This document shows positions 34,211-62,393 of a stretch of DNA of 64,000 nucleotides, one piece after another; position 1 is the stretch's first letter; each line of letters starts with the position of its first letter. The stretch is taken from assembly GCA_016795105.1 (NCBI GenBank), contig JAEUIH010000034.1, positions 1 to 64,000 of the forward strand, given 5' to 3'. Below the pieces are notes generated by a model. It searched no databases. It had not been told where the DNA came from and saw only the letters and a list, made by a program, of their open reading frames with translations. The translations under genes were made by a program, and so were the position numbers. Origin of the DNA: Planctomyces sp. (GTDB taxonomy: Bacteria > Planctomycetota > Planctomycetia > Planctomycetales > Planctomycetaceae).

Positions 34211-34466
34211 TGTCTGGTTCCGATCGATTCCGGCTTGATCCTGGTTAATTTGTGTTTGACAGACAATGGGCACAGGCGTCTAACAATTGGTTTGCTTTTC
34301 CCGGCACATTGTTGAGTTGTGCTGTATACAAGGCAAGTATTCTGGAAATTCTCTGAAAGGATTGAGACGCTGCTGTGTGAGACCATATAGATGACGTGTT
34401 TTTCTCGATTCCTGACCATAATGGTCGCTGGCGTTTGATTGGTTCTTCTATGGAATTCATGTGCCC

Positions 34467-35072
34467 ATGAGCCAGTGGCCGGAAACAAGGGAGAGTTTAA
34501 TATTGCGGATACGTGATCCGCAGGACGCGATCGCGTGGTCGCAGTTCATGGCAATTTATGGGCCTGTCGTCTATCGGTTGTCCAGACTGCGAGGACTTCA
34601 GCACGCAGACGCAGAAGATCTGTGTCAGCAGGTTTTTCTGTCCGTCGCAAGGGCGGTAGAAACCTGGGATGCTCAACAGGGTGGTCCGCGTTTTCGCAAT
34701 TGGCTGGGTCGAGTTACTCGAAACGCAATCCTCAACGCGATCACTCGGACCAGGTTCGATCGAGCGACAGGGACTTCCAGTGTGCAGGACCTGCTGCTGG
34801 AATTACCGGACAGTGGCAATATGACTACCGCACTGCTACACGAGAGTCGCATCGAGGCCTATCGCTGGGCTGCTCGGCAGGTAAAAACGGAGTTCAGCAC
34901 ATCGACCTGGACGATGTTCCACGAAACAACAATCGGCGGACGCAGCGTCGCGGATGTTGCGAGGACGCTCGGCACCAGCAGCGGAGCAGTTTATGTCGCC
35001 CGCTGCCGAGTCATGCAACGCATTAAAGAAACGGTGAATGAAGTGTCTGACTTTTGGAGGTTGGAACGATGA
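34467..35072 (+). CDS. ECF-type RNA polymerase sigma factor
   Basis: 201 aa from the ATG at 34467; a GTG two codons upstream (34461) is also possible. Region 2: AWSQFMAIYGPVVYRLSR, then DAEDLCQQVFLSVARAVETWD and NWLGRVTRNAILNAI. Region 4: WTMFHETTIGGRSVADVARTLG followed by VYVARCRVMQRIKETV. It closely resembles the sigma factor at 38265-38867, and the two were probably produced by one duplication. Its stop overlaps the start of the next kinase gene by four bases (ATGA, 35069-35072), which gives a coupled pair. It is divergent from the WD40 kinase gene at 34210, 256 bp away. Confidence 0.92.
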   Translation: MSQWPETRESLILRIRDPQDAIAWSQFMAIYGPVVYRLSRLRGLQHADAEDLCQQVFLSVARAVETWDAQQGGPRFRNWLGRVTRNAILNAITRTRFDRATGTSSVQDLLLELPDSGNMTTALLHESRIEAYRWAARQVKTEFSTSTWTMFHETTIGGRSVADVARTLGTSSGAVYVARCRVMQRIKETVNEVSDFWRLER

Positions 35073-38000
35073 AGTCTGTGACTCCGTGTCTACGAACAGC
35101 GGATATCGATGCCTTACTTGCCGGAACAGTTCCACCATCACAGAGTCAGTTGTGGGAAGAACATTTCTCCGACTGTGAATGCTGTCGCATGGCAATGGCG
35201 AGTCAGGTTGGAGACCAGCAGTGGTGGCAGGAAGCAGAACAGTCGTTGCAGCACCAGGTTTGCGAGTCTCTCCGAGACTCGCAAACCCGTCTCGGAGAGA
35301 CGGGCCTGCGTGAGTTGCCGGACGAGCGCGAGAGCATTGAGGAACTTTTAAAACTGCTGGGACCGACCGACGACCCGCAAATGTTGGGACGCATCGGATC
35401 GTACGAAGTGTTGGGGGTTCTTGGACGAGGCGGAATGGGTGCCGTTTTCAAAGCGTTCGATGCCCCGCTGAATCGTTTTGTCGCCATCAAAATGTTGCTG
35501 CCGCACCTCGCAGTTTCAGGGACAGCTCGGAAGCGGTTCGCTCGCGAAGCTCAAGCAGCTGCGGCTGTGGTCGATGATCACGTGATGGCAATTCACTGTG
35601 TCGACGAGTGGCAAGGTGTACCGTATTTGGTCATGACCTATTCACGGGGCGTTTCATTACAAAGGCGATTGAACGACAACGGGCCTTTAGAAGTTCGCGA
35701 AATCCTGCGTATCGGCATGCAGGCTGCTAAGGGACTGGCCGCAGCCCATGCACAAGGCATCGTGCATCGCGACATCAAACCAGCCAACATCTTTCTTAGT
35801 CAGTCTGTCGAACGCGTGCAGTTGATGGACTTTGGCCTGGCTCGCACTGTGGACGACGCCAGTCTGACTCGTTCCGGCACTCTCGCTGGTACTCCGCAGT
35901 ATATGTCACCCGAGCAAGCGCGAGCTGAAACCGTCGACCATTTCAGCGACTTGTTCAGCCTTGGCAGTGTGATGTATGCCATGTGCACCGGCCATGCTCC
36001 GTTCCGAGCCGAATCCAGCTACAGCGTGCTCCGTTTGATTACCGACAAAGAACCTCGCTCGATTCGCGAAATCAATCCGGAAATTCCCGAATGGCTTTGC
36101 TCAATCATCAGCAAATTGATGTCTAAACAAGCCAGTGATCGCTTCGCATCTGCTCAGGAAGTTGCTGAATTGCTCGAAGATTGTCTTGCCCATGTGCAGC
36201 AACCCACGACTGTGCCTCTGCCAAAGTCCATTACTTCCGCACAGTCCAAACAGCACCGGCGTCTACTGCCTGGCAAGTTCATTGCCGCGGTATCGTCCGC
36301 GTTCCTGATGATCTTCGCTGGCGTGTTCGTCTTGCTGGAAATGAACAAGGGAACGCTGACAATCGAATGTGAAGCGAATGACGTACCGATTCGCATCATG
36401 CAGGGGGAGAAACTTGTTGAGAAGCTTACGATTTCGACGACCGGAGAATCGGTGCGTGTCGCTGCTGGCAACTACAAGGTGGAAATTGATGGAGCCTTCG
36501 ACAATATCGTAGTGAATGGAGGGCAAGTTGCCCTGAAACGTGGTCACACGGAAGTCGTCCGAATTCGACATTCAAGCAATGAAGCACAGAAAGACTCCAG
36601 TTCACCTGAACGGATTGCCAACCTGCCGGAAGACACTGAGGTCCACGTCGTCGGCTGCTATTTGGCAACAGACAACCAGCCAGTCAATGTGAGAGTGCAG
36701 AGAACCGGGAAACCAATGGTCGTCGTACTGAATGCTTACAGCGCCACGAGCTGGAACCTGGAAATTGATCAGGACGCCGACGTGCGCGGCGTCATACTCA
36801 GTGGATATTTCGATCAGCGATTTTCGCACATGGCTCCCAAAGATCAGCCCACGCGAATTCTCTCCTATTTCCCAATCTGGCAGGGGATTTCAGATGAAGA
36901 AAAGAAAGCTCGAGCCAGCCGCTGTTTTTACGTCTGGTCACCACTATTGCCGGATTTCGGAAAGATGCAGTCGTTGATCCGTGATCTTACAGGAGAAGAC
37001 GTTACGACCTTTCAGGGAATCTACACCGCAAGGTCGTTCCTGATCGACGGGCAACGCGGCCTTGAGGAAGCAAAGGTCGCTGTTCGATGGCAGAATTTAT
37101 CAAAGCGTTTCGATCCAGAGTCTCAAAGATATCGCAAGGTATTGGCCGAATTGGAATCCGTGCGCAGGAGTGATGATCGGGTACTCAACGCCGCAGAGAT
37201 TCAGAAACTCAATCTGCTGCTGGAGACATACGAGGGGGACAGCGACGAAACGCCTGCGGTGAATCCGAAAGCGACAGAGTCTTCATCGCTGAACAAGACT
37301 CTGCAACAGCTGCAGGGTCAATGGCAACTCCTACGCCAAATTGATGCGGACGGCGCTGAAAGTGGCACGCCCGCCAAAGCTGTGTGGGAATTCCAGGGTA
37401 ACCGCATCGTTGTACGAGATAGTGGGCCTGGCGGAACGATGCTGATCGAGGTTGATGATTCGCACTCACCTGCCCACATAAAAGTAGCACTTGAAACCGA
37501 AAGTGAATCCGGGCTGGGTCTGCTCAGTGTCGAAAACGACAAACTCATCATCTGTCTCGGCACGCGACAACAGAAGCCAGATCCTGAGAGTCGCCCTGAG
37601 AAGCTTCAATGGGTGTCCGGAGTTTGGTACATGGAACTGACTCGCGTCCAGACTGGCGAGACGCCCGCGATCGATCATGGCAATGCCCGTTCAGTTGTCG
37701 AAGCCTACATCGCATCGGCACTTGCGGGGGATGTCACGCAGGCGGCGGCCCTGGCAAAGAACGCTCCGGCCAGTTCTGAACGCATTGCACTGTTTCGAAA
37801 GGTTCTCAACCTCCAGCAGTTGAAGATTCAAACGGTCTACGTGGATCATCCTGCGAAACCGACACGTGCACTAGCGACTTCGGTAGCTGTCAGGCTGGAT
37901 GGCGATCATAAGGAGCCCGACGGTCGACGCGATGGTTTCATGGCATTCACGCTGGAGTTTACCAATGACAAGTGGTTCGTCGTCGATGTCGACTTTCCAT

Positions 38001-38074
38001 CGGAAACGCGTGCTGAAGCCGAAGTGAAGGAATTTCTGGAAGCCAATCCAGACTCGATCGACGTGCACCCCTAA
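35069..38074 (+). CDS. ZAS-motif Ser/Thr kinase with TIGR03067-like ectodomain
   Basis: 1001 aa from the ATG at 35069, which follows GGAGG and overlaps the sigma stop. The N-terminus has HFSDCECC, an HxxxCxxC zinc motif (His32, Cys36, Cys39). The kinase (about 110-370) is intact: GRGGMGAVF, Lys141, HRDIKPAN (Asp235), DFG, TPQYMSPEQ. A transmembrane helix (about 403-423) leads to a PEGA-like region, an unidentified middle domain, a TIGR03067-like domain (LQGQWQLLRQIDADG) and an NTF2-like C-terminus. A hairpin repeat lies inside the coding sequence at 35257-35304, between the zinc motif and the kinase. Membrane sensor with a cytoplasmic kinase. Confidence 0.92.
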   Translation: MKSVTPCLRTADIDALLAGTVPPSQSQLWEEHFSDCECCRMAMASQVGDQQWWQEAEQSLQHQVCESLRDSQTRLGETGLRELPDERESIEELLKLLGPTDDPQMLGRIGSYEVLGVLGRGGMGAVFKAFDAPLNRFVAIKMLLPHLAVSGTARKRFAREAQAAAAVVDDHVMAIHCVDEWQGVPYLVMTYSRGVSLQRRLNDNGPLEVREILRIGMQAAKGLAAAHAQGIVHRDIKPANIFLSQSVERVQLMDFGLARTVDDASLTRSGTLAGTPQYMSPEQARAETVDHFSDLFSLGSVMYAMCTGHAPFRAESSYSVLRLITDKEPRSIREINPEIPEWLCSIISKLMSKQASDRFASAQEVAELLEDCLAHVQQPTTVPLPKSITSAQSKQHRRLLPGKFIAAVSSAFLMIFAGVFVLLEMNKGTLTIECEANDVPIRIMQGEKLVEKLTISTTGESVRVAAGNYKVEIDGAFDNIVVNGGQVALKRGHTEVVRIRHSSNEAQKDSSSPERIANLPEDTEVHVVGCYLATDNQPVNVRVQRTGKPMVVVLNAYSATSWNLEIDQDADVRGVILSGYFDQRFSHMAPKDQPTRILSYFPIWQGISDEEKKARASRCFYVWSPLLPDFGKMQSLIRDLTGEDVTTFQGIYTARSFLIDGQRGLEEAKVAVRWQNLSKRFDPESQRYRKVLAELESVRRSDDRVLNAAEIQKLNLLLETYEGDSDETPAVNPKATESSSLNKTLQQLQGQWQLLRQIDADGAESGTPAKAVWEFQGNRIVVRDSGPGGTMLIEVDDSHSPAHIKVALETESESGLGLLSVENDKLIICLGTRQQKPDPESRPEKLQWVSGVWYMELTRVQTGETPAIDHGNARSVVEAYIASALAGDVTQAAALAKNAPASSERIALFRKVLNLQQLKIQTVYVDHPAKPTRALATSVAVRLDGDHKEPDGRRDGFMAFTLEFTNDKWFVVDVDFPSETRAEAEVKEFLEANPDSIDVHP
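35257..35304. repeat. Paired hairpin repeat inside a kinase gene
   Basis: Two perfect inverted repeats lie back to back. The first has a 14-bp stem, GGTTTGCGAGTCTC (35257-35270) with GAGACTCGCAAACC (35274-35287), and a TCC loop. The second has an 8-bp stem, CCCGTCTC (35286-35293) with GAGACGGG (35297-35304), and a GGA loop, the complement of TCC. Both match the design of the dispersed hairpins near 61.3 and 62.3 kb. The element is read through in frame, adding residues of the ESLRDSQTRLGETG type. There is no T-run, so it is not a normal terminator. Confidence 0.85.
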
Positions 38075-38264: not shown

Positions 38265-38867
38265 ATGATTCCCAGTCCACCGGAAACCAGAGCCAGCCTG
38301 ATCGTGCGTCTGCGTGACGCTGCGGATGTTGTAGCGTGGGATGAATTTGTGTCCGTATACGGGCCATTGGTCTATCGACTTGCACTGCGTCAGGGATTGC
38401 AGTCGGCCGATGCAGACGATGTGGTGCAGCAGGTCTTCGCTGCTGTGGCTCAGTCAGTTCACCATTGGCTGGAACGACCGGACCGAGGTCGATTTCGTGG
38501 CTGGCTCCTTACGATTTCCCGGAACATTGCCATCAAAACCCTGACACGCCGGCCCTGCGGTGGTATCGGATTCGGTGGCGATCCTGGACCGGCCCCATTG
38601 AGCGAACTCGCGGAACCCAGTCCGGATGTGTGCGGCCAGTTTGATATTGAGTATCGTCGCGAAGTCTATCGCTGGGCCGCAGAACAGGTACGGGCGTCCG
38701 TTGCTCCGAAAACATGGAACGCGTTTCAACTGACTCATATCGAAGGAGTTTCGATTGCCGACGCGGCTGCACGACTGAACCTGTCCGCCGGAAACGTCTA
38801 TATCGCTCGCAGTCGTGTCATCAGCCGTCTGCGTGAACTCGCCAGACAATTCGAGGTGTCCGAATGA
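38265..38867 (+). CDS. ECF-type RNA polymerase sigma factor
   Basis: 200 aa from the ATG at 38265; the frame is open to a GTG at 38217 but the family N-terminus (PETRASLIVRLRDAADVVAW) fits the later start. Region 2: DADDVVQQVFAAVAQSVHHW and RGWLLTISRNIAIKTL. Region 4: TWNAFQLTHIEGVSIADAAARL and VYIARSRVISRLREL. It is a close paralogue of the sigma factor at 34467-35072. Its stop overlaps the next kinase start by four bases (38864-38867). The 190-bp gap upstream contains no clear promoter. Confidence 0.92.
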   Translation: MIPSPPETRASLIVRLRDAADVVAWDEFVSVYGPLVYRLALRQGLQSADADDVVQQVFAAVAQSVHHWLERPDRGRFRGWLLTISRNIAIKTLTRRPCGGIGFGGDPGPAPLSELAEPSPDVCGQFDIEYRREVYRWAAEQVRASVAPKTWNAFQLTHIEGVSIADAAARLNLSAGNVYIARSRVISRLRELARQFEVSE

Positions 38868-61319: not shown

Positions 61320-61348
61320 GTAGCAGGCACATTCCATGTGCCGTCCGC
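61320..61348 (+). repeat. Hairpin repeat element 1 (TCC loop)
   Basis: Flank GTAGCA, 7-bp stem GGCACAT / ATGTGCC with a TCC loop, then flank GTCCGC. The element lies just after the stop of the histidine kinase gene, between convergent genes, and could act as a stem-loop for transcript ends, but no T-run follows. Member of a five-copy family in this window. Confidence 0.9.
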
Positions 61349-61358
61349 TGGTGCTATG

Positions 61359-61387
61359 GCGGACGGCAGACGGAGTCTGCCTGCTAC
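61359..61387 (-). repeat. Hairpin repeat element 2 (inverted copy, changed stem)
   Basis: Inverse orientation. On the minus strand it reads GTAGCA, then stem GGCAGAC / GTCTGCC with TCC loop, then GTCCGC. The variable four inner bases differ from element 1 on both arms in a pairing-preserving way, while flanks and loop are kept. Confidence 0.9.
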
Positions 61388-61388
61388 T

Positions 61389-61417
61389 GAAACAGGCACA
61401 TTCCATGTGCCGTCCGC
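61389..61417 (+). repeat. Hairpin repeat element 3 (left flank changed)
   Basis: Stem GGCACAT / ATGTGCC, TCC loop and right flank GTCCGC are identical to element 1; the left flank is GAAACA in place of GTAGCA. It lies 2 bp from element 2 and 14 bp from the end of the LysM gene. Confidence 0.85.
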
Positions 61418-62275: not shown

Positions 62276-62304
62276 GTAGCAGGCATTCTCCGAATGCCGT
62301 CCGC
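62276..62304 (+). repeat. Hairpin repeat element 4 (third stem variant)
   Basis: Flank GTAGCA, stem GGCATTC / GAATGCC with TCC loop, flank GTCCGC. A third stem sequence in the same frame of flanks and loop, again fully paired. Confidence 0.9.
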
Positions 62305-62364
62305 AAATGCACCTGGCCTCGCCACTACCAATCGCTGAAGCCGCAGAATCGCAACTACGGCGAC

Positions 62365-62393
62365 GCGGACGGCACATGGAATGTGCCTGCTAC
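62365..62393 (-). repeat. Hairpin repeat element 5 (inverted copy)
   Basis: Minus-strand copy with the stem of element 1 (GGCACAT / ATGTGCC), TCC loop, and intact GTAGCA and GTCCGC flanks. On the plus strand it is followed by TGAAACA, as is element 2. Confidence 0.9.

Follow-up and report, generated by a model that had tools for sequence, protein, structure and literature searches.

Hairpins of a probable decayed REPIN within the linker of a planctomycete kinase gene

How does a pair of hairpins come to lie within the reading frame of a protein kinase gene? This question is raised by a locus of a Planctomyces sp. whose genome of 8.9 Mb (G000) is assembled in 391 contigs; the window, that is, the whole 64-kb stretch of DNA analyzed here, is part of contig C277. 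The hairpins, their host gene and its neighbor are arranged as follows.

34464..35072, plus strand: partner gene upstream, encoding an ECF-type sigma factor (Sigma70_r2), from open reading frame and Pfam; 87% identity to the L104 locus
35069..38074, plus strand: host gene, encoding a serine/threonine kinase of 1001 aa with an ATG start, from open reading frame and Pfam
35252..35312, plus strand: whole element, REPIN-like head-to-head dimer of GTAG-type REP hairpins, from alignment score and fold z; in frame in the kinase gene as residues 62-82 (HQVCESLRDSQTRLGETGLRE)
35252..35258, no strand given: outer stem, left arm CACCAGG, where the family has CCACGTAG, from fold and family comparison
35257..35287, no strand given: hairpin 1, perfect 14-nt arms and TCC loop
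35286..35304, no strand given: hairpin 2, stem of 8 bp and GGA loop, two bases in common with hairpin 1
35305..35312, no strand given: outer stem, right arm CCTGCGTG, where the family has CTACGTGG; the minus-strand tag is GCAG, from fold and tag check

Anatomy of the hairpin element

The kinase consists of a zinc-finger-like N-terminus, a linker, the kinase domain and a C-terminal extension. As the original prediction had stated, a 14-bp stem with a TCC loop and an 8-bp stem with a GGA loop lie between the CX2C zinc-finger-like motif (residues 36-39) and the Pfam kinase domain (residues 112-363), and the reading frame is open across them. Hairpin 1 has perfect arms of 14 nt each (35257-35270 and 35274-35287), and hairpin 2 reads CCCGTCTC-GGA-GAGACGGG (35286-35304). 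The stems adjoin, as claimed, but bases 35286-35287 are used by both, which makes complete pairing of the two at once impossible. Apart from hairpin 1, no perfect stem in the window with a loop of 3 nt reaches 9 bp; the pair of hairpins is confirmed and far exceeds what chance would produce.

The RNA MFE fold of 35252-35313 has an energy of -38.7 kcal/mol, compared with -19.5 +/- 2.9 for 200 shuffles (z -6.7), none of which (0/200) was as stable. In this fold, an outer stem of 7 bp, interrupted by a single bulge (CACCAGG / CCTG-CGTG), encloses a 12-bp TCC hairpin and the 8-bp GGA hairpin. Since the outer stem closes, the extent of 35257-35304 first noted holds for the core hairpins but not for the element, which measures 61 bp (35252-35312).

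A dispersed family of GTAG-tagged repeats

The search for further copies to which the original prediction pointed was rewarding. The 13-nt core GTCTCTCCGAGAC has 24 matches in the genome of origin, counted as 20 separate sites, and the reversed control has none; for the 17-nt core GAGTCTCTCCGAGACTC, 13 exact and 6 one-mismatch matches were found there, again with no match to the reversed control. Both window cores, the first being GCGAGTCTCTCCGAGACTCGCAAA, agree letter for letter with this dispersed family. GTAG-tagged REPs are dispersed palindromes of 20-40 bp in many copies, and the 24 copies, spread over 20 sites of the 8.9-Mb genome, fit this description; they also rule out a unique chance palindrome. 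A family copy of the same genome reads GTAGGC-GAGTCTC-TCC-GAGACTC-GC, often with a partner CGCGTCTC-GGA-GAGACGCG-GCTAC some tens of bases farther on the opposite strand, and GTAG is at the expected place for 18/24 core matches. Family stems of 9 bp with a TCC loop fall within the range of REPs (stem 5-13 bp, loop 2-20 nt), against which the window stems measure 12 (14) bp and 8 bp.

The tag thus recognizable in the family is missing from the window copy, whose left end reads GTTT (CAGG/GTTT) and whose right end reads GCAG, with GTAG at neither. Judged by its letters, this copy is a decayed family member and, its own tags having decayed, it is probably immobile by now. Two exact cores only 23 nt apart occur nowhere else in the genome of origin, where the other three pairs are separated by 55-80 nt. 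Just 2/20 sites in this genome lie deep within a long open frame, one of 1001 codons and one of 745 codons as far as the stretch extends. The next-longest frame has 236 codons and stops at the element (L026, G000:C12:8746), and in this respect resembles the GTAG REPs that supply stop codons, as described in the available text of a 2013 report in BMC Genomics (PMC3733652).

Many more copies occur in a relative of the same genus (G001). Across 59 genomes including that of the window, core copies number 189 in G001 and 24 in G000, with one each in ten genomes and none in 47; one copy amounts to background, as the reversed control too gives single matches in several genomes. The exact 17-nt form was found in 6 of 170 genomes of the taxonomic family (G001 138, G117 17, G000 13, G071 8, G154 3 and G012 1). 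Among the G001 copies inspected (29 clusters in 20 stretches, or 54 core matches, out of 189 core copies), GTAG lies at most 9 nt upstream in 39/54 core matches, and many copies are tight inverted pairs such as CCACGTAGGCGAGTCTCTCCGAGACTCGC-GAATCCC-...GCGTCTCGGAGAGACGCCGCTACGTGG (L142, L147, L151 and similar). These pairs share the plan of the window element and have CCACGTAG/CTACGTGG as their own ends. REPINs are inverted REPs with complementary outer ends, which is what is found in the same-genus CCACGTAG...CTACGTGG and in the 7-bp outer stem of the window. Aligned with a same-genus REPIN, the element scores 36.5, while none of 9118 other window positions scores more than 12.0; the resemblance therefore extends beyond the two hairpins to the entire dimer with its outer ends.

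Elsewhere in G001, L145:7172-7292, L146:3833-3954 and L155:2665-2785 contain REP copies, apparently at one site in several genes or gene remnants, which we take to be YD-repeat (Rhs-like) from recognition of their sequence. The frame appears open on either side of the L146 copy.

The original prediction had equated the design with that of the intergenic hairpins near 61.3 kb and 62.3 kb. The plan is indeed shared (GTAG tag, TCC/GGA loops, dimers) but the stem sequence is not: window positions 61320-61411 and 62276-62393 are head-to-head dimers of another GTAG family, GTAGCAGGCA-NNN-TCC-NNN-TGCC, in which complementary stem variants are interchangeable and exact copies number 393 in the genome of origin, 0 in G001, 17 in G059 and 55 in G060. 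In this larger GTAGCAGG family, 23 clusters were examined, 2 from the window and 21 from 20 stretches chosen among the copies listed; none lies far within a long open frame, and 3 touch the end of a frame of >250 codons.

Y1_Tnp matches number 9 in the genome of origin and 12 in G001. A core copy was present at 0/9 of the former loci and at 2/9 of the latter that were examined (L180 and L189; 12 matches in all), co-occurrences that could be due to chance given the density of core copies (189 in 9.2 Mb). At these 9 and 9 loci, no RAYT gene was found with the window REP family at its flanks. The Y1_Tnp (RAYT-like) genes L075, L172, L168, L164, L161 and L162 are flanked by other hairpin families, with CCCAGGGC-AAC/GTT-GCCCTGGG at L075 and GTAG-tagged CCCGGCCT hairpins at L161.

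Orthologues, a second in-gene copy and the history of the linker

Scanning the genome collection with the kinase yielded 16 loci. In the closest orthologue, L104, the sigma factor is 87% and the kinase region 88% identical to the window, and the linker, shorter by 24 nt, is free of the hairpin. Its genome G059 holds 0 core copies, as do five others of the 7 genomes checked, the remaining one (G064) having 1. The hairpin is likewise absent from L105, the next-closest locus, and from the C166-type kinases L106, L107 and L110-L112. The linker comparison that the original prediction called for thus reveals a hairpin that is not conserved, and a conserved structured domain is ruled out by its presence in none of the examined orthologues. 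The neighboring paralogous kinase at 38864, in whose linker the original prediction saw unrelated sequence, has no copy: exact matches to the core pattern in the window are confined to 35266 and 35289. The C-terminal halves of L104:4001-9631 and window 35069-38074 differ, with WD40 repeats in L104, so that the orthology is restricted to the sigma factor and the N-terminal kinase half; judging from this comparison, the difference would be a sign of domain shuffling in the kinase family. The L104 contig (CAMAVB010000150.1) is titled Candidatus Kuenenia stuttgartiensis, yet its sigma-kinase pair is 87-88% identical to that of the window, and the record title or the binning is probably wrong.

Compared with L104, dN is 0.068 and dS 1.16 in the kinase domain (0.065 and 0.77 in the sigma factor), which indicates that the gene is kept by purifying selection. 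An open gene under purifying selection, with an orthologue free of the element, is what is expected of an intragenic in-frame REP, and implies that the element is translated. The high dS suggests that the insertion may be old, the nearest comparison without the element being already distant (dS to L104 about 1.2-1.4). The net gain over the L104 linker is 24 nt, whereas the element measures 61 nt, which is not a multiple of 3; either some 35-40 nt of old linker were lost or the linker is too variable to compare, and because it evolves fast the old sequence is not alignable with confidence. The proposal of a mobile element that landed in frame is supported, and in essence correct. Both outcomes named there as refuting it, conservation in all orthologues and a lack of further copies, failed to appear. 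The dispersed copies, the open frame and the element-free L104 agree with it, and the mobility of the family may be deduced from copy number and presence/absence; the lengths do not by themselves speak for a clean insertion.

The second site in a long frame belongs to a related kinase of the same genome, C166:42250-43434, which is 73% identical to the window kinase over residues 1-389. It carries a family member in the same linker (L012 about 1949-2039), also in an open frame; this copy, of about 90 nt, has a near-consensus hairpin ending GCCTACGTG and a degenerate partner upstream. The C166 relatives L106, L110, L111 and L112 are without the element. In the tree, C166 groups with L106 (91% in both genes) and the window adjoins L104, although the clade of window, L104 and L105 has support of only 62/51. 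A sister relationship of window and C166 is rejected (p-AU 7.6e-75) in a test whose groups were named after an earlier tree had been inspected and in which the sigma part is missing in 8/14 rows, including L105, L107, L109, L111, L084, L091 and L108. Left out of the final tree were L112b, an unrelated long branch, and L107b, L096, L098, L099 and L115. One insertion inherited by both paralogues is less likely, as the kinases are not sisters and each has an element-free orthologue; there were either two separate entries, or the element was copied between paralogues, which is possible. The encoded peptides are alike in part, with RLGETGLRE in the window and SLGETRLRE in C166. A tolerant linker is the simplest reason for both copies to sit in the same linker. 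A bolder alternative is that the linker is a recurrent REP landing site, where separate in-frame entries in two paralogues were kept for retuning the linker; we regard this as unlikely.

Origin and significance of the element

We consider it very probable that an old and partly decayed REPIN entered the linker, was kept in frame and is translated. A REPIN is a short repeat that carries no genes; its members would most likely have spread as single-stranded DNA folded into a double hairpin, on which a RAYT-type (TnpA_REP) Y1/HUH transposase recognizing GTAG and the hairpin presumably acted. One copy would have entered the linker between zinc motif and kinase domain in the lineage of this planctomycete, replacing part of the old linker or followed by a partial loss, with a net gain of 24 nt. 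An open frame and a linker tolerant of extra residues would have allowed the copy to be kept and translated as about 21 residues, presumably neutral in the protein. In an older paralogue, the same linker would have received a further family member in a separate event.

Four other explanations deserve consideration. The hairpin could have a function at the RNA level in the kinase mRNA, as a translation attenuator or processing site, maintained by selection and only incidentally of repeat origin. The very stable fold (z -6.7) of 61 nt centered about 210 nt past the start codon, and the presence of such an element in the same linker of two related kinases of one genome, would fit this role; however, none of the examined orthologues has it, the C166 copy is arranged differently, and hairpins within coding regions are unwound by ribosomes, which together make an RNA function improbable. 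Frame-preserving domestication, in which the peptide would alter linker length or charge and hence the coupling of zinc motif and kinase, could explain why both in-gene members among the 20 sites are in the same linker and encode partly similar peptides. Such likeness nevertheless follows from the same DNA being read in the same frame, and linker length and sequence vary widely among repeat-free relatives. The structure model of the kinase (mean pLDDT 57) is too poor to judge: the kinase domain itself is poorly modeled, so the low confidence of the linker (residues 47-124) says little, and we hold domestication to be quite improbable.

A third possibility is that the hairpins arose in place, by replication template switching that perfected an imperfect palindrome of the linker without any repeat insertion. 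The stems are perfect in the window and imperfect in family members; both arms changed jointly (CCCGTCTC/GAGACGGG for CGCGTCTC/GAGACGCG, with TTT facing AAA), which is the expected outcome of template correction; and L104 already has RDS where the right arm of hairpin 1 encodes RDS. A chance origin at a single site is nonetheless unable to yield cores identical to a dispersed family together with matching order, orientation and outer ends (36.5 vs. 12.0), and in-place origin is very improbable, even if template switching may have polished the copy after its insertion. Finally, an assembly artefact, conceivable in a probably metagenome-derived genome fragmented into 391 contigs since palindromes are prone to misassembly, is hardly credible in view of the open frame across the element, the different copy in a second kinase whose frame is open too, and the core at 18 further sites.

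A decayed REPIN in a coding linker belongs to a class that is already known, REP dimers inside genes having been described in 2013 (PMC3733652). According to the available text of that report, GTAG-tagged REPs occur in many phyla including Planctomycetes, with R. baltica named; behind their terminal GTAG comes a short stem whose loop has 2-3 nt, families of complementary stem variants exist, and head-to-head dimers carry GTAG outside. The family described here has these traits in common with them and likewise occurs in a planctomycete, although the window copy itself has lost GTAG; a GYAG tag is permitted in some families. Over half of intragenic REPs are dimers or groups, coding for 20-30 residues and perhaps neutral in flexible linkers, a description that also suits the window element. 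We found no description of the window copy or of the stem GCGAGTCTC-TCC in the accessible text of this literature, outside the figure that lists the 24 families of PMC3733652. REPINs, defined in PLoS Genetics in 2011 as inverted doublets of REPs that fold into a single hairpin and thought to be the replicative or mobile unit, are overwhelmingly extragenic in the portion of that article consulted (PMC3116915), whereas here 2/20 sites, including the window copy, are inside genes. Rickettsia palindromic elements (RPE; Ogata 2000 and 2002), the best-known palindromes of in-frame type, as presented in the available sections of the review PMC10969869, are palindromic repeats of about 150 bp, nearly half of them inserted in ORFs, in frame in protein genes, translated and apparently tolerated. 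The likeness to RPE is one of behavior only, that of an in-frame translated palindrome; the window family has 61 bp, is of the GTAG type and lies mostly outside long ORFs.

The locus adds to this class, in a planctomycete, a case of a GTAG-type REP dimer turned coding sequence, together with an orthologue that lacks the element, and a paralogue in this genome provides a second one. The analysis also gives a name to the REP family GCGAGTCTC-TCC (exact 17-nt copies: 13 in the genome of origin and 138 in the relative), which should help to identify the transposase of the family. The locus shows that signaling proteins can acquire short new peptides from REP elements, and if the linker were indeed a recurrent landing site kept for retuning, this REP family would supply protein-coding variation to signaling genes.
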